Shown one piece after another: positions 4,323-34,119 of a DNA stretch of 34,119 nucleotides; the stretch's first letter is position 1; each line of letters starts with the position of its first letter. The notes below the pieces were generated by a model. That model saw only the letters and a program-made list of their open reading frames with translations. It was not told where the DNA came from and did no database searches. Both the position numbers and the translations under genes were made by a program. The DNA is from Gemmatimonadales bacterium (lineage in GTDB: Bacteria; Gemmatimonadota; Glassbacteria; GWA2-58-10), in assembly GCA_024278175.1 (NCBI GenBank), contig JAJRTS010000013.1:1-34119 (forward strand). The letters are read 5' to 3'.

Positions 4323-4976
4323 TCAGAGAAAGATTCCGTTGATTCCGTGCCAGCCGAAGTATACGGCGAAAAATACGAGAATCACCGCGCAAACCCGGAT
4401 CATCCCGCGATAAAGACCATCGGAGAGCCAGCGTTTGCCGCCGGTTGTCAGAGTGCTGATTACGGTGTACCAGGCCAGGTCGGCAAAAATGTGGCCCGCC
4501 AGGAACGTTGTCAGGCCGGCCGCGCCAAGCTTGCGGGCTATCGCCATGTAACCCAGCCCGATAGTGGCCCACCAGAGAATCCAGTAAGGATTCGACACGC
4601 TGGTGACGATTCCGGCCCAGAACGGGTGAACATCAACCAGGCCGTTCCCTTGCTGGCAGTCAGCGGAATCACCAAAGAGAGACAGCTTGCCGGCGCCGCG
4701 CAGCATCCCGACACCCATCCAGAGTAACATCGCACCGCCGGCCACTGCGAAAAAAGCGAGTACCGTGGCGTTCTGCAGAAATTCCGCCAGGCCCAGGATC
4801 ACCGCCGCCACCAGCGCGCTCTCCAGCACGGCGTGGCCCAGCACCGCGACCGGCCCGGTAAGCGCGCCGCGCCTGGGGCTCTGGCCCACTACCGCCACCA
4901 GCATCGGACCCGGCATCATCGCTCCCGAAAGCCCGAGTACGAACGAGCCGACAAATATCCCGACCAGCGTATCCAT
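4323..4976 (-). CDS. LysE-family membrane exporter
   Basis: A 217-residue inner-membrane protein with about six hydrophobic segments. The family signature is near the N-terminus: GAMMPGPMLVAVVGQSPRRG followed by GHAVLES. Later segments include NPYWILWWATIGLGYM, typical of the LysE/RhtB superfamily, which exports amino acids such as lysine, threonine or homoserine lactones. Substrate cannot be read from sequence. The start lies 7 bp after the NRAMP-like stop, which suggests translational coupling; the ribosome site (GGGATAA) is weak. The following 108 bp before glgA holds no gene I can support. Confidence 0.85.
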   Translation of the reverse strand: MDTLVGIFVGSFVLGLSGAMMPGPMLVAVVGQSPRRGALTGPVAVLGHAVLESALVAAVILGLAEFLQNATVLAFFAVAGGAMLLWMGVGMLRGAGKLSLFGDSADCQQGNGLVDVHPFWAGIVTSVSNPYWILWWATIGLGYMAIARKLGAAGLTTFLAGHIFADLAWYTVISTLTTGGKRWLSDGLYRGMIRVCAVILVFFAVYFGWHGINGIFL

Positions 4977-4983
4977 CCTGCAG

Positions 4984-6207
4984 TTATCCCGTAAGCCTGC
5001 CGTAAAGGTTGATAACCGTGTTGACCGCCAGCAGGCAGACCGCCAGCACGCCCAGCGCGCCGATCACGTTTACCCACCACGCGGGCCGTGCATCGCCCAT
5101 CAGGTCGCGCTTGTTCGACAGCCAGAGGATCATGAACGAGATGAGCGGGACCATGATAACGGTGGCCGCCTGGGCCACTATGATCGAGTTGACCGGCGAG
5201 AACCTGCTGCTGGCAGCCGCGGCGGCGGTTCCCGCGAGCAGAATCAGCGCCGCGAAGCGTTTGCTCCACGGGCTGGCCACTCTGCCGCCGATATTGAGCG
5301 CATCGGAGAGGATCGTTCCGCCCAGCACGGCGTTACCCAGGAACGAGCTGAAACTGGCCCCCCACAGGCCCAGGCAGAACAGGTACATCGCCGAGCGGCC
5401 CAGCAACGGCTCAAGCTGAACCGCCATGTCCGCGGCGCTGCGCACGGTTATCCCGCGGCTGCCCAGCACCGTGCTGGCGGTAATCATCAGCACCAGCCCG
5501 ATCAGGGGGAGCGCCACGATCCCCACCGCGCTGTCGCGCAGGACCTTGCCCAGCTCGGCGGGGCCCCATTTTTTTTCCTGCACCAGGTAAATCTGGAAAA
5601 GCGCGGCCGCCACCGAAAAGGTGGTCGCCACCACCGCCGCGATCAGCGGGATGCTGCCGGGGTCGATAGCCGAGGGGATGAACCCGCGCGCCACCTCGCC
5701 CAGATCGGGCCGGGCCACGACGAGGTTGGTAAAAAAGGCGACTATCATGATCCCCACCAGCGCCATCATCAGTTTTTCAATCGCCTGGTAGAGGCTGGAA
5801 AAGAGGAACATGAAGCAGATGGCGATCAGGGTGAATACCAGCGCCCAGAGCCAGACCGGCCCGCCGAACACCGCGTTCATCGCCATGCCCACGCCCAGGT
5901 TGTTGCCCACCTGGAACCCGGCACAGACCAGAAAAGTGAATACGCCGATAACCACCGCCAGCCAGCGCCCGTAGCGCTCGGCTACGATGGTCATGAAGGA
6001 TTTCTCGTTAACCGCGCCGAACCGGGCGGCCAGTATGGTGAATGTCATCATGAACGCGCCGCTGACCAGTGCGATCCAGAGGATTTTGGTGCGCAGGATG
6101 CTGCCGATGGCGGACATGCTGGTGATCGATCCCGGACCCAGCACCACCGCGGCCACGATCAGGCCGGGCCCTAAGCTGCGCAGGATTTTTTTGATTGTGT
6201 TGAGCAA
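4984..6207 (-). CDS. NRAMP-related membrane transporter with altered metal site
   Basis: A 407-residue protein with about 11 membrane segments and the NRAMP layout. The first segment reads GPGLIVAAVVLGPGSITS. Canonical NRAMP proteins have DPGN here, with Asp and Asn binding Mn/Fe; this one has GPGS (24-27). The sixth-helix Met motif (MPHN type) also appears missing, that stretch reading TTFSVAAALFQIYLVQ. It is therefore a divergent NRAMP clade, and its ion is unknown. The start is taken as TTG at 6207, because GAAGGA lies about 8 bases upstream and the protein then begins just before the first conserved segment; the longer ATG frame from 6300 would overlap the DUF3467 gene. It is 49 bp downstream of that gene. 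Confidence 0.82.
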   Translation of the reverse strand: MLNTIKKILRSLGPGLIVAAVVLGPGSITSMSAIGSILRTKILWIALVSGAFMMTFTILAARFGAVNEKSFMTIVAERYGRWLAVVIGVFTFLVCAGFQVGNNLGVGMAMNAVFGGPVWLWALVFTLIAICFMFLFSSLYQAIEKLMMALVGIMIVAFFTNLVVARPDLGEVARGFIPSAIDPGSIPLIAAVVATTFSVAAALFQIYLVQEKKWGPAELGKVLRDSAVGIVALPLIGLVLMITASTVLGSRGITVRSAADMAVQLEPLLGRSAMYLFCLGLWGASFSSFLGNAVLGGTILSDALNIGGRVASPWSKRFAALILLAGTAAAAASSRFSPVNSIIVAQAATVIMVPLISFMILWLSNKRDLMGDARPAWWVNVIGALGVLAVCLLAVNTVINLYGRLTG

Positions 6208-6256
6208 GCTGATGGTCCTTCTTCCAGAGGGGGGGCGATGGCTTGACCGCCCGTGA

Positions 6257-6589
6257 TCAGTGCACTTTGTTCTCGTCCTCGCCTGCCGGCGGCCCGTCAA
6301 CGCTGATCTGCGGCAGATGTCCGCCGGATTCGATCTGGCCGTGCTGGAGCTCGAACTTGGCGATATTATCGGCTATCGCCCGCTGGAGGTTCTTGAAGTT
6401 CTGGGGAGTCATCACGATCCGCGCCTGAATCCGGGCCTTGTTAACCCCGGGCATGATCCGGGCGAAATCGAGAATGAACTCGCTGCTTGAGTGGGTAATC
6501 ACCGCCAGGTTGGCGTAGACCCCCTCCGCCTCCTGCTCGCGGAGCTCCAGATTGATCGTTCGTTCCTGGGACGGCTGTTGCTTACTCAT
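6257..6589 (-). CDS. DUF3467 family protein
   Basis: A 110-residue soluble protein of the DUF3467 family, whose function is not established. Family features are EGVYANLAVITHSSSEFILDF near 24-44, the following DFARIMPGVNKARIQARIVM, and TPQNFKNLQRAIADNIAKFE. The acidic tail (GPPAGEDENK) is low complexity. The start ATG at 6589 is chosen over an upstream in-frame ATG because CCGGAGG precedes it by three bases and similarity begins there. It is the first gene of the minus-strand run; a TTGACA-containing promoter lies at 6636-6664. Confidence 0.85.
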   Translation of the reverse strand: MSKQQPSQERTINLELREQEAEGVYANLAVITHSSSEFILDFARIMPGVNKARIQARIVMTPQNFKNLQRAIADNIAKFELQHGQIESGGHLPQISVDGPPAGEDENKVH

Positions 6590-6635
6590 CGTACCTCCGG
6601 TTATTGTCAGCAGATTTTGGTTGTGCTTTCGCATC

Positions 6636-6664
6636 AAAATGGGAGGCGTCCGGGAGAATGTCAA
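6636..6664 (-). promoter_or_regulatory. Probable sigma70-type promoter for the DUF3467 operon
   Basis: Read on the minus strand, a perfect TTGACA (6659-6664) is separated by 17 bases from CATTTT (6636-6641), a weak -10. Transcription would begin around 6630, about 40 bases before the DUF3467 start. It is close to, but does not overlap, the divergent promoter at 6679-6707. Confidence 0.5.
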
Positions 6665-6678
6665 GAGGCGCAAGCGGG

Positions 6679-6707
6679 TTGAAACGCGGGCCGCCGGGCT
6701 GTAAATT
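6679..6707 (+). promoter_or_regulatory. Probable promoter for the secreted protein/matrixin pair
   Basis: TTGAAA (6679-6684), a 17-base GC-rich spacer and TAAATT (6702-6707). The start would be near 6714, giving an untranslated leader of about 80 bases before the ATG at 6793. Confidence 0.5.
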
Positions 6708-6792
6708 GAATGATTCTTGCAGCGGCCGGAAGGTGGAAGTATGCGGGGCGATTTCCGGCTATGATTGAAAACCGGTCTGGGAGGGAATTTTT

Positions 6793-7365
6793 ATGTGCGC
6801 GGCAAGTCAACTCTGGAAACAAATCCGGCCCGCGTTAGCGCTGACACTGCTGCTGGCGCTGCCGGCGGCGGCTACGATTGTGCGCTACCTTCCGCTGGAG
6901 GAGCAGGCCCACACCGCCGCGGTGGTGGTGGTGGCCGTGGCCGGGGAGCAGAACTGTGCCTGGGGAAGTAACAGTGCGTTGATCTATACCGATACCCGGT
7001 TCAGGGTGGAGCAGTGGGTCAAGGGCCGGGGCGCGGCGGAAACCCTGGTTGCCCGTCAGCTCGGCGGCGTAATCGGCGATATGGGCCAAAGCGTGGCCGG
7101 AACGCCGGTTTTCCGCACCGGTGGCCGCTACGTGCTGTTCCTGGCCGAGCGCGGCGATGGCCGCTACCGGGTGGTGGGGTTTAGCCAGGGGGCCTACCCG
7201 GTGGTGCGTTCGGTGGGGGGCAAGCAGAAAGTAATGCCCAGCCTGGCCTCCGCCGGGGGAGTCGAATTGGTGGGAGGTGTCGGTAAGGGCGGCAACGGCG
7301 ACGGCAAAAAACTGCCGCTGGGTGAGTTCCTCTCCCGGATCAGAAGCATTCTGGGACAGGAGTAG
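6793..7365 (+). CDS. Small secreted protein upstream of the matrixin
   Basis: I do not recognise a named family. The 190-residue product begins with a Sec-type signal: a basic start, the hydrophobic core LALTLLLALPAAA and a likely cut after an Ala near residue 28. The mature part includes TDTRFRVEQWVKGRG, a pattern seen in secreted proteins of unknown role that carry a beta-rich domain, then FRTGGRYVLFLAERGDGRYRVVGFSQGAYPVV. A Gly/Lys-rich linker (GGVGKGGNGDGKK) precedes a short C-terminal helix. GGGAGGG sits seven bases before the ATG. Its stop is five bases from the metalloprotease start, so the two are almost certainly co-transcribed; an inhibitor, chaperone or partner of the protease is possible but only inferred. 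Confidence 0.75.
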   Translation: MCAASQLWKQIRPALALTLLLALPAAATIVRYLPLEEQAHTAAVVVVAVAGEQNCAWGSNSALIYTDTRFRVEQWVKGRGAAETLVARQLGGVIGDMGQSVAGTPVFRTGGRYVLFLAERGDGRYRVVGFSQGAYPVVRSVGGKQKVMPSLASAGGVELVGGVGKGGNGDGKKLPLGEFLSRIRSILGQE

Positions 7366-7370
7366 AGGTG

Positions 7371-10232
7371 ATGCGAAGAAGCCTGAAGATGACAAGCAGG
7401 ATTAACGGTAAAATAAGCGGATTGCTGATGCTCGCCGCGGCCCTGGCCGCGGTGCTTCCGCGTCCGGCATGGGCCTACGTGTATTCCTTTACGCCGGAAA
7501 GCGGTATCCGTCAGCACTGGAACACCGGGGATTTTGGGGATTTCCCGATTTCGTACTGGGTCCACGACGCCGGCATTATCGACGGGACCAGCATGAACCT
7601 GATAGAAAAAGCGCTGGACGACAGCTTTAAGGCCTGGGAGAATATTTCCAGTGCCGATGTCTCTTTTACCGACAAGGGGCTCACTAATCTGACCGAGATC
7701 AGCAAAAGCAGTGACGACGGGGTGAACCTGATTATTTTCGATACGCAGACCACCAATTTCACGGTTTCCACCGACGTCGGGCCATCGGTGGTGGGGATCA
7801 CGATCAACAAGTTCACCACCACCGGTCACCTGGTGGATTCGGATATCATTTTCAACGACCGGGAATACAGGTTCAGCACCACCCAGGCCACCGATCTGGC
7901 CAGCAAGCGGATCAACCTTCAGGACGTGGCCACCCACGAGATCGGCCACCTGCTGGGCCTGAGCCATAGCTGGATCGAGCAAGCCACCATGTACCCCTAT
8001 ACCCGCGACGGCCAGCGCACGGTGGCCGCTGACGACAAGGCGGGGATCAGCAACCTCTACCCGGTCCCCGCGTTCGACACCTCTTTCGACTCGCTGACAG
8101 GCTATATCGAAAATGTTGACGGCGCAAAGGTGAGCGGTATTTATGTCTCGGCCATCGACGATTCCACAGGGCTCGAGGCCGTGGCCGCCCTGAGTGGTAC
8201 GGATGGTTTCTACAATATCCGCGGCCTGCGACCGGGCAAAAAATATTACCTTCGCGCCCGCACGGTGGAGCTCAAACACGTGGGCAAGTATATCAACGAC
8301 AACGCGGACGGCACGGTTTACATCCCGCAATACTACTCCGGGGCCAGCTCGATTTTCGCCGCCGAACCGATTATTACCGGCGGCTACCAGCCGGACTACG
8401 ATTTCACGCTGACCACCGCCACGCTGCTGGCGCGCTACGACATGAACAGCGCACCTACCACACTGCTTAATTTTGGCAGCAGCACAACTTCAAATTATTA
8501 CATGGCTGTTCGTTTTCCGGTCTCCAGTTTGCCGCCAGCGTTCAAGGTCCACGGGATGACTTTTTTCAACAACGACCTCAACATGGCCTGGCCGCGTATC
8601 ATGCTCACCGGCGGCAGCGATACCGCCCCGGAAATCGGCAGTCCGATCCGCCAGGTGAAGAATTATATCGGCGCGGAGCAGAGTATGACCAACGTGGAGT
8701 GGGAAGCGGTCCAGCTTACAAGCGCCCGCACGCTGTGGGTGGTATTCCAGTTCCCCGACAAAAAGTTTCAGGCTGTGGGCGATGGCCCTGCCCTGGGAGC
8801 CGACAGTACGAAGAATGACAATTTTAACGATTCTTTTATTTCAAAGGATGGAGGAGCCGGCTTTACCCCTTATCCCAATAGCAGCTATGACCTGAAAGTT
8901 TACCTGACAGTGGAGGTCACCGATGCCGCAATCGTGCCGTCGCTGGTGCTGGACCTGGACAAAATCGATTTCGGCAGGGTCAAGGCGGGCTGGCCCACCG
9001 TGCTGAGCTACCCGCTGGGCAATACGGGCCAGGCCGCGCTGGAGTTGTTCAGCATGGAATTCTCCGCATACAAGTATACAGCTACGGTCGGGGGTGCCGC
9101 CCCGCCAGTCACGGTTGAACCGGGACAGACAGACTCGCTGCTGATTACGTTCGAGCCTACCCGGGCCGCCACTTACAGTGGCACTTTCACTATCATGACC
9201 AACGACCCGGCCCGGGAGGAAATCCAGATCCCGGTCACCGGCACGGGTGTTTTTCCCGTGGCGCTGCTTTCCACCGCCGCCGTGGCGTTCGACACGGTGG
9301 AGGCCGGCTCCGCCGACACGCTTGTCTTCAGTATTGCCAGCATGGGCGAGATGCCCCTGCTGGTCTGGGGCTGGAGTATCAACGGCGAGGGGTTCTCCGT
9401 GCTGGCCGCCGATACGCTGGAAATTCCGCCCGCCGACAGCGCCGATGTCCCGGTGCGTTTCGCCCCCTTAAGCGGCGGGGCGTACTCGGTAACGCTCTCG
9501 TTCACTACCGATGACGCCGTTCCGCCCACGGTCCATCAGGTTGTCCTCTCCGGCAGCGGCAGCGGTGACGCGGTGGCGCGGCGCTGCGACATGACCGGCG
9601 ATGGCCGGGCGGACATTGTCGATCTGCTCTACTTCCTGCTGCTCTCGCGCCGCAGCCCCGACGACCCTCGCCTGGACTGGGACGGCGGCGGCGGTTTTAC
9701 AGTGGCCGACGTGCTGGCCCTGCTGTTGGATATTCGCAACGGCGCCTGCCCGGACGTGCAGTCGGGGGCCGTACTGGCCGGAGTGGAGGCCCGCTCCGGT
9801 GACGCGTGGCTGGAATCGCTGAGCGCGGAGGAAATAACCTGGCTTCGGGAGCAAGTTGTGAAACTGGGCCTCTCCGGCACAGACCTCGCTGACGCCATGG
9901 CCGTGCTCGACAGGGCCGGCGGCGGCGGCGGTCCTGTGCTGCCCGCGGTGTTCAGCCTGGCCCAGAACCGGCCCAACCCGTTCAACCCGTCCACGGCCAT
10001 CTCCTACAGCGTTCCACAGAGCGCGGGCGCGGCAACAGTGAGCCTCAAGGTTTACAACATCAGCGGGCGGCTGGTGCGGGTGCTGGCCCAGGGGCCGGCA
10101 ATTCCCGGCGAACATACTGTCTACTGGGACGGCGCCGACCGGCGGGGGCGCGAGGTGTCCAGCGGGGTTTATATCTACCGGCTTCAGGCGGGGGGCAAGG
10201 CGCTTACCCGCAAGATGGTACTGCTGAAATAA
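7371..10232 (+). CDS. Secreted multidomain matrixin-type metalloprotease with FlgD/type IX-like sorting tail
   Basis: The 953-residue product starts with a basic region and signal peptide (core LLMLAAALAAVL, cut near PAWA). A zinc protease domain follows: HEIGHLLGLSH at about 189-199 and a Met-turn in ATMYPYTRDG, then the matrixin-like DDKAGISNLYP. Next come a carboxypeptidase-regulatory-like beta domain (about 240-300), a middle beta region, two HYDIN/choice-of-anchor-D-type Ig repeats (LDKIDFGRVKAG and TAAVAFDTVEAG starts), a dockerin-like segment (DMTGDGRADIVD), a helical linker and a last ~85 residues beginning LAQNRPNPFNPSTAISYSVP and ending SGVYIYRLQAGG..KMVLLK. That ending resembles FlgD-like/type IX secretion sorting domains. 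ATG at 7371 is preferred over the GTG one codon earlier, with GGAG eight bases upstream. Substrate unknown. Confidence 0.87.
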   Translation: MRRSLKMTSRINGKISGLLMLAAALAAVLPRPAWAYVYSFTPESGIRQHWNTGDFGDFPISYWVHDAGIIDGTSMNLIEKALDDSFKAWENISSADVSFTDKGLTNLTEISKSSDDGVNLIIFDTQTTNFTVSTDVGPSVVGITINKFTTTGHLVDSDIIFNDREYRFSTTQATDLASKRINLQDVATHEIGHLLGLSHSWIEQATMYPYTRDGQRTVAADDKAGISNLYPVPAFDTSFDSLTGYIENVDGAKVSGIYVSAIDDSTGLEAVAALSGTDGFYNIRGLRPGKKYYLRARTVELKHVGKYINDNADGTVYIPQYYSGASSIFAAEPIITGGYQPDYDFTLTTATLLARYDMNSAPTTLLNFGSSTTSNYYMAVRFPVSSLPPAFKVHGMTFFNNDLNMAWPRIMLTGGSDTAPEIGSPIRQVKNYIGAEQSMTNVEWEAVQLTSARTLWVVFQFPDKKFQAVGDGPALGADSTKNDNFNDSFISKDGGAGFTPYPNSSYDLKVYLTVEVTDAAIVPSLVLDLDKIDFGRVKAGWPTVLSYPLGNTGQAALELFSMEFSAYKYTATVGGAAPPVTVEPGQTDSLLITFEPTRAATYSGTFTIMTNDPAREEIQIPVTGTGVFPVALLSTAAVAFDTVEAGSADTLVFSIASMGEMPLLVWGWSINGEGFSVLAADTLEIPPADSADVPVRFAPLSGGAYSVTLSFTTDDAVPPTVHQVVLSGSGSGDAVARRCDMTGDGRADIVDLLYFLLLSRRSPDDPRLDWDGGGGFTVADVLALLLDIRNGACPDVQSGAVLAGVEARSGDAWLESLSAEEITWLREQVVKLGLSGTDLADAMAVLDRAGGGGGPVLPAVFSLAQNRPNPFNPSTAISYSVPQSAGAATVSLKVYNISGRLVRVLAQGPAIPGEHTVYWDGADRRGREVSSGVYIYRLQAGGKALTRKMVLLK

Positions 10233-32814: not shown

Positions 32815-34119
32815 ATGGCGGAGACAAAGCAGCGCGGCAACGGCGAAAAGCAATATTCGACAGTGCAGAGCGTGGGGCTGATGCTACTGCGGCTGGCGGT
32901 CGGCTGGCATTTCCTTTACGAGGGCCTGGTGAAGCTTACCACCGACGGGTGGTCGTCGGCCAGCTACCTTGCCCAGTCGCGCTGGCTGCTGGGAGGACTG
33001 TTCGATTGGATCGTGGCCCATCCGGCGGCGCTGACTGTTGTGGACCAGCTCAATATCTGGGGGCTGCTGCTGATCGGGTTGGGGCTGCTGCTGGGCGTGT
33101 TCACGCGCGCGGCGGCGGTTGGCGGGATAGTGCTGCTGGCGTTGTACTGGATGGCAAATCCGCCGCTGGTGGGGCTGGACTACGAGATGTTTACCGAGGG
33201 TAACTATCTGGTGGTGGACAAGAACATGGTGGAGATGCTGGCCCTGCTGGTGCTGGCCGCGTTCCCCACGGGTTCGTTTTTCGGGCTTGACAGGCTGATT
33301 GACTCGTTTCGTTCCAGGCTGGCCCGGAGCCGCGCCGTGCCGCCGGGGCCGGTGGACGAGCAGCCGGGCGGCTGGCTGCTGGAGCGCCGGGAGCTGCTTA
33401 AATCATTGATATCCCTGCCCATGCTGGGTGGGTTTGCCTATGCGGTGATGAAAAAGCGTGGTTATGAGAGCTGGGAGGAAAAACACCTGCTGTCCCTGGC
33501 CGGCGGGGATACCGAGGCGATTACCAGCGCCACCGCACGCACGTTTCATTTTTCCAGCCTCAAGGATCTCAAGGGCACTCTGCCCAAGGCGAAAATAGGG
33601 GACATGGAACTGAGCCGGATGATCCTGGGCGGCAACCTGATCGGTGGCTGGGCCCACGCCCGCGACCTGATCTACGTGAGCAAGCTGGTCAAGGCCTACC
33701 ATCACGACCGCAAGGTGTTCGAGACTTTCAGCCTGGCTGAGCAGTGCGGAGTCAACACGATCCTGACCAACCCCGTCCTGAGCCGGGTGATCAACGAGTA
33801 CTGGCGTAAAACCGGCGGTAAAATTCAGTTTATCAGCGACTGTGCTTTTAACAATGACATCCTCGAGGGCGTCCGGGTCTCGGTGGACGGCGGGGCGCAT
33901 GCCTGCTACGTGCAGGGGGGAATCACCGACCGCCTGGTACCCGAGGGCAAGCTGGACGAGATCGCCGGGGCGCTGGAGTTGATCCGCGGCAACGGGGTCC
34001 CGGCCGGGATCGGCGCCCACGATCTCAACTCGGTTATCGCCTGCGTGGACGCGGGCCTGACGCCGGATTTCTGGGTCAAGACCCTGCATCACACCGACTA
34101 CTGGTCGGCGATCCCCGAG
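32815..34119 (+). CDS. DoxX-family membrane protein fused to a TIM-barrel-like domain (3' end beyond window)
   Basis: The frame is open from ATG at 32815 to the window end (435 codons, no stop). Residues about 18-160 are a DoxX-like membrane module: MLLRLAVGWHFLYEGLVKL, LNIWGLLLIGLGLLLGVFTRAAAVGGIVLLALYWM and MVEMLALLVLAAFPTGSFFGLD. A Pro-rich linker leads to ERRELLKSLISLPMLGGFAY (190-209), which resembles a twin-arginine signal (RR-x-L-L-K plus hydrophobic stretch). From about 260 a soluble domain begins, SRMILGGNLIGGWAHARD, ILTNPVLSRVINEYW, IQFISDCAFN, GGAHACYVQGG, GIGAHDLNSV and TPDFWVKTLHH, the style of aldo/keto-reductase or similar TIM barrels. The ribosome site is GAAAGGC. Function is not known to me. 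Confidence 0.82.
   Translation, partial: MAETKQRGNGEKQYSTVQSVGLMLLRLAVGWHFLYEGLVKLTTDGWSSASYLAQSRWLLGGLFDWIVAHPAALTVVDQLNIWGLLLIGLGLLLGVFTRAAAVGGIVLLALYWMANPPLVGLDYEMFTEGNYLVVDKNMVEMLALLVLAAFPTGSFFGLDRLIDSFRSRLARSRAVPPGPVDEQPGGWLLERRELLKSLISLPMLGGFAYAVMKKRGYESWEEKHLLSLAGGDTEAITSATARTFHFSSLKDLKGTLPKAKIGDMELSRMILGGNLIGGWAHARDLIYVSKLVKAYHHDRKVFETFSLAEQCGVNTILTNPVLSRVINEYWRKTGGKIQFISDCAFNNDILEGVRVSVDGGAHACYVQGGITDRLVPEGKLDEIAGALELIRGNGVPAGIGAHDLNSVIACVDAGLTPDFWVKTLHHTDYWSAIPE

Follow-up and report, generated by a model that had tools for sequence, protein, structure and literature searches.

DoxX modules joined to a TIM barrel by a predicted Tat-inserted helix and a linker with a putative ApbE-type flavinylation motif

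The families that reach the membrane through both Sec and Tat include, in the text of Tooke et al. 2017 (PMC5449189), the actinobacterial Rieske protein Sco2149, the Mo-cofactor protein Sco3746, a polyferredoxin and polytopic YkuE; DoxX is not named in that text. The motif recognized by ApbE is D-x-x-[ST]-G-A-[ST]; modification is reduced, though not abolished, when A stands in for G or S for T, and a change of D to A has a minor effect (PMC12052999). A survey of flavinylated systems distinguished five classes of membrane partner, DoxX not being one of them (PMC8238504). The open-access literature that we searched returned no paper containing both DoxX and ApbE, and only one, on copper resistance, containing both DoxX and "twin-arginine". 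Provisionally, a link between DoxX and ApbE and dual Sec–Tat targeting of DoxX are therefore both new to that literature.

Layout and distribution of the fusion

The gene described here occupies the last part of the window, by which we mean the whole stretch of DNA analysed: 34,119 nucleotides, the entire contig G000:C113 in a draft genome of 4.18 Mb. Its features are:

32815..34119, + strand: whole open reading frame, DoxX–Tat helix–linker–TIM barrel fusion; ATG start, 435 aa, no stop
32854..33312, + strand: DoxX domain, residues 14–166, with four predicted membrane helices (from Pfam, conservation and the model)
33289..33384, + strand: basic cytoplasmic linker, residues 159–190, mean net charge +1.5
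33385..33390, + strand: twin arginine R191–R192, kept in 82/82 homologues
33391..33453, + strand: fifth hydrophobic segment, residues 193–213, with invariant P202, a predicted Tat-inserted helix
33451..33459, + strand: KKR cluster just past helix 5; at least two K/R in residues 211–218 in 79/82 (compare PMC5449189)
33514..33534, + strand: predicted ApbE-type flavinylation motif EAITSAT, residues 234–240, with predicted acceptor T240 at 33532–33534
33562..34119, + strand: incomplete (beta/alpha)8 TIM-barrel domain, matched by no Pfam family and closest among solved folds to aldo-keto reductase

The 3' end of the gene is missing because the contig ends at 34119. The rest of it was located in a full-length version of the fusion gene from the same genus (L008; 524 aa, 83% identical) and in a near-identical 3' part at the end of contig G000:C93 (L002, 1231–2007, minus strand; 96% identity in protein, 93.7% in DNA), which could be a strain-level variant or an additional copy. 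Within the window protein, ERRELLK corresponds to residues 190–196 and is followed by SLISLPMLGGFAYAVM and KKRG, the hydrophobic stretch ending at about residue 212–213. Pfam DoxX (PF07681) matched residues 21–111 (E 1.9e-7; 32 bits against a gathering threshold of 23.6), and no other Pfam domain was found in this protein. R26, G30-W31, E36-G37, K40, W46 and E140 are invariant in the aligned DoxX domains. A relative of DoxX in Planctomycetota (L148, probably also L149–L164) has an insert of more than 200 residues in its first periplasmic loop, in a frame of about 380–510 aa.

A genome scan recovered 80 further loci encoding the same DoxX–barrel fusion, which is thus no chance event. They belong to more than 10 phyla in all, the groups being Glassbacteria, KSB1, Acidobacteriota, Planctomycetota, Bacteroidota, Sumerlaeota, Hydrogenedentota, Latescibacterota, Calditrichota, Verrucomicrobiota, Kiritimatiellota and Lentisphaerota. 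The alignment of fused homologues had 82 rows, 81 of them distinct (one identical pair), with two loci left out; the patterns used to search for these homologues did not contain RR. No conserved neighbourhood was found around the fused gene, the commonest neighbouring families, Gfo/Idh/MocA and sulfatase, occurring in at most 9 loci. Fused and split forms are interleaved in the DoxX tree, which calls for two fused/split changes, though the fusion may have arisen only once. The two parts do not always go together: the fusion is widespread, but unfused DoxX and stand-alone barrels also exist.

The barrel domain and its predicted location

AlphaFold2 modelled the barrel confidently, with eight strands (domain-only pLDDT 93, pTM 0.92), and the best Foldseek matches were aldo-keto reductases, namely PA4992 (4exa/4exb) and L-galactose dehydrogenase (E about 4e-8, TM about 0.6–0.7); identity to the nearest aldo-keto reductase folds was about 16%. 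The preliminary description, made from the letters alone, had proposed a DoxX-like region followed by ERRELLK, a hydrophobic stretch and a TIM-barrel-like domain, and this architecture is upheld by the Pfam match, the sequence positions and the eight-stranded model, with aldo-keto reductase folds nearest to the barrel. Neither Pfam nor NCBIfam supplied a family name for the barrel, distant cytosolic relatives included, and the Pfam aldo-keto domain matched none of five diverse members. A profile search of the PDB with the barrel gave nothing significant; its best hit (E 0.03) was to a 27-residue stretch of IMPDH-like proteins. We rejected the assignment as a true aldo-keto reductase, because the Asp-Tyr-Lys-His tetrad appears to be missing from where it would be expected: the ends of strands 2, 3 and 4, located from strand positions and not by superposition, read TNP, SDC and QGG.

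Residues common to the fused, the stand-alone and the distant cytosolic barrels include two His, two Asp, one Arg and one Lys. The distant barrels (L006, L007, L018, L026 and relatives) carry no Tat signal, are likely cytosolic and have no Pfam family; their invariant R, H, H, D and K suggest an undescribed enzyme family.

Four DoxX helices and segment 5 are seen both in the AlphaFold2 model and in the sequence, so that an even number of helices precedes the RR pair. In the fused homologues, mean net charge was +1.0 to +1.5 for cytosolic loops and 0 to –1.1 for periplasmic loops. The RR pair and P202 were each present in 82/82 rows, whereas overall 0.36% of dipeptide sites are RR, and neither RK nor KK replaced RR in any of them; the pair on which the idea of a twin-arginine-like segment had rested was thus missing from no aligned homologue. 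By mean Kyte-Doolittle hydropathy, helix 5 (1.49) is less hydrophobic than TM2 (2.08) and TM4 (1.86) and does not lie below TM1 or TM3. The same genomes also encode stand-alone barrel paralogues that begin with ordinary Tat signals, and the signals of these paralogues and of the split partners are near-identical (RRxFLKAxxxxPxLGAF). Of 50 genomes searched for TatC, 47 encode it, that of the window among them; the three negatives may reflect draft gaps. Since charge bias, helix parity, Tat-exported paralogues and the distribution of TatC all fit, the sequence evidence gives good support to a protein handled first by Sec and then by Tat, its barrel lying on the outer side. The earlier suggestion of an outside barrel had been open to a prediction of the opposite side; loop charges, together with a TM5 that follows an N-in/C-in four-helix module, instead point outward.

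The linker motif and apbE beside unfused DoxX genes

Between the Tat helix and the barrel, the family shares the consensus D-[AG]-x-[ST]-[SG]-A-[TS]. The acceptor is T or S in 82/82 rows, the fourth residue S or T in 81/82, D or E occurs in 79/82 and A in 77/82. The pattern [DE]..[ST][GS]A[TS] matched 71/82 linkers, compared with 0.14% after shuffling, and of its 72 matches in fused proteins all but one lay in the linker; the strict form D..[ST]GA[ST] was present in 32/82. EAITSAT in the window departs from the strict motif twice, with E in place of D and S in place of G. AlphaFold2 models this linker as disordered (residues 230–243 of L008, pLDDT <50), and the motif should therefore be accessible. 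No FMN_bind, DUF2271 or DUF3570 domain matched the fused protein. That the exported domain might bear a cofactor had been a guess, and it gains support from this conserved, predicted ApbE-type motif just past the Tat helix.

The window's genome has two ApbE genes, and ApbE is encoded in 49/50 genomes with a fused gene, a sample that left out three loci with apbE as the next gene; ApbE being common, co-occurrence at the level of genomes is weak evidence. In those three loci (L099, L069, L046), apbE lies directly downstream on the same strand. Such adjacency is rare (3/82 fused genes); the chance estimate, from about 1.7 ApbE per genome, is 0.3 over all flanks.

We also surveyed the genes close to this DoxX subfamily irrespective of fusion, with about 5 kb fetched per side. 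At 38 unfused loci, mostly from Acidobacteriota, DoxX adjoins a Gfo/Idh/MocA enzyme with a Tat signal, and the parts of the fusion thus also occur as separate genes; at 25 of these 38, apbE is adjacent or one gene off. Gfo is usually 3' of DoxX, the order being reversed in some unfused loci. Compact apbE–doxX–Tat Gfo/Idh/MocA operons, often with overlapping genes, were seen in L173–L189 and L191–L194 (Acidobacteriota) and in L201 (G049).

The Gfo partners are of several types. Among the scorable ones, 25/43 have the motif close to the C-terminus (for example DAVTSAT, EAITSAT or DGMSSAT; one DAVASAT); in the remainder, which comprise 14 of the 25 apbE-linked partners, it is degenerate or absent, and regional motif searches of apbE-linked operons with a motif-less Gfo turned up no other convincing site for the flavin. 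In six unfused loci from Bacteroidota, DoxX is always paired with Gfo (motif in 5/6, DAVASAT in the sixth); apbE is near none of the six, and is likewise absent beside the split DoxX genes of the window's family. In the window's genome, the motif is present in both Gfo proteins beside DoxX and in none of about 14 others with a Tat signal; elsewhere, it is missing from 9/9 Gfo proteins near fused genes. The partners' best NCBIfam models, glycoside 3-dehydrogenase and inositol dehydrogenase, were matched below their equivalog cut-offs, and sugar oxidation would therefore be a reasonable first guess. Our literature search found no paper naming a redox partner for BT2158.

In a second DoxX system of the window's genome (L195; G000:C6:44609-55091, 4941–9011), DoxX is followed by two Tat-signal Gfo/Idh/MocA genes, both encoding E-A-x-T-x-A-T near the C-terminus, and a lone TAG parts DoxX from the first Gfo in one frame. 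In L004, an in-frame TAG separates DoxX and Gfo; we rejected recoding as its explanation, since in relatives the two are ordinary genes, separate or overlapping. In L245, the gene downstream of DoxX–Gfo (7301–9676, + strand) encodes an exported-looking protein of 792 residues with PVDAYTGAT, an ApbE-like site, directly past its predicted signal peptide.

A possible electron route and its relation to known systems

We think it fairly probable that the fusion is a dual-targeted inner-membrane oxidoreductase in which a tethered FMN links the barrel to a quinone-reactive DoxX module. Sec would insert the four DoxX helices, N-in and C-in, and the moderately hydrophobic segment 5, with RR before it and K/R after it, would be left to Tat. 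Tat would move the folded barrel into the periplasm, helix 5 remaining as its anchor. On the periplasmic side, T240 of the flexible linker would be the residue to which ApbE attaches FMN; thus tethered, the flavin could shuttle electrons between the barrel active site and the DoxX module, which would exchange them with the quinone pool. DoxD is a thiosulfate:quinone oxidoreductase, and a remote analogy with TQO/DoxD suggests that DoxX, too, may react with quinone. The fusion would be a one-chain version of the modular system of DoxX and a Tat-exported Gfo/Idh/MocA dehydrogenase, often with apbE, and DoxX is probably the membrane, quinone-facing subunit for covalently flavinylated, Tat-exported enzymes.

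Other readings fit part of the evidence. The protein might be targeted by both Sec and Tat with DoxX as an anchor or assembly partner only, [ST][SG]A[TS] being a structural or substrate element that carries no flavin. We consider this unlikely: S is indeed as frequent as G at motif position 5 of the fused family, and many apbE-linked Gfo partners lack the motif, but an acceptor T/S in every one of the 82 rows stands out from an otherwise variable, gapped linker, the motif is common to two unrelated DoxX-paired enzymes and missing from their unlinked paralogues, and apbE accompanies DoxX at 25/38 unfused loci. Slightly less likely still, the tethered FMN could be the barrel's own active-site cofactor, with DoxX relaying electrons or acting as a scaffold, or electrons from quinol could run outward to a periplasmic substrate. 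The motif does sit only about 10–20 residues ahead of the barrel, where H, H, D and K are conserved at strand ends and a phosphate-loop-like stretch, GADFxCxG, is weakly IMPDH-like. Yet the motif had 0 matches in about 14 stand-alone barrel paralogues, so the chemistry of the barrel does not need a tethered flavin.

It is very improbable, finally, that RR is a mere positive-inside flank, that helix 5 is not inserted by Tat and that the barrel is cytoplasmic. The similar hydrophobicity of helix 5 and helices 1 and 3 would agree with it; the exact RR with no RK/KK variants in 82 rows, the invariant P202, the K/R on the far side of helix 5, the helix parity and the shared Tat signal of stand-alone paralogues and split partners all argue against it.

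The reading as a flavin-tethered oxidoreductase predicts a simple set: one threonine, one flavin and one membrane partner. If it is true, a widespread family joins the few proteins known to be built by Sec and Tat together, DoxX, a common family of poorly known function, acquires a concrete role, and it could be explained how enzymes that depend on a cofactor and leave the cytoplasm folded, through Tat, are re-oxidized outside it. The relatives of the fusion suggest an undescribed route by which electrons pass from outside-facing enzymes into the membrane. Possibly, though here we are slightly more doubtful than confident, the DoxX proteins of this subfamily form one more class of membrane partners in electron transfer to or from ApbE-flavinylated, Tat-exported enzymes. 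Periplasmic sugar-type dehydrogenases (Gfo/Idh/MocA, the fused TIM barrel) would use them to exchange electrons with quinone by way of a flavin bound covalently to a flexible arm, and the arrangement would come in two forms, an apbE–doxX–tat-enzyme operon and a single Sec–Tat protein.

Compared with the DoxX/DoxD family (TQO DoxD, MauE, HvfX), most fused members pass the Pfam DoxX cut-off and similarity to DoxD is weak: the scores were 16.2 bits against the NCBIfam equivalog cut-off of 300 for TQO DoxD and 21 against 80 for HvfX, and, as a further difference, DoxX is here fused to a domain predicted to be exported by Tat. The barrel shares its TIM-barrel fold with the aldo-keto reductases PA4992 and L-galactose dehydrogenase, and differs from them in its low identity, in having no Pfam match and in the unseen tetrad. 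The periplasmic Gfo/Idh/MocA enzymes (NCBIfam BT_2158 glycoside 3-dehydrogenase; the split-DoxX partners, which score below the BT_2158 equivalog cut-off) go with the same DoxX subfamily, have a Tat signal and in many cases the same motif, but have a Rossmann fold unrelated to the TIM barrel and are encoded by a separate gene. Like ApbE-flavinylated extracytosolic systems, the fusion and its relatives would combine a motif of the type D-x-x-[ST]-[GS]-A-[TS] outside the membrane with an apbE that is nearby at some loci and a membrane electron-transfer partner (Méheust et al. 2021, PMC8238504; PMC12052999), although that partner would be DoxX and not of the NapH, MsrQ, PepSY, DsbD or RNF/NQR type (PMC8238504). 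As in Sco2149 and its kin, as described in PMC5449189, the helices would be inserted by Sec, a conserved RR directly precedes the last helix and a cofactor-type domain would lie outside; RR also comes after an even number of helices, like that of the 5-TM families. In those proteins the last helix is modestly hydrophobic with K/R past it; here, K/R follow helix 5 in nearly all rows, and its hydropathy is below that of TM2 and TM4 only. What sets the fusion apart from Sco2149 and the other Sec–Tat families is its DoxX module, its predicted ApbE-attached FMN and its cargo, which, as the preliminary description had held, is not that of the Rieske precedent but a TIM barrel.
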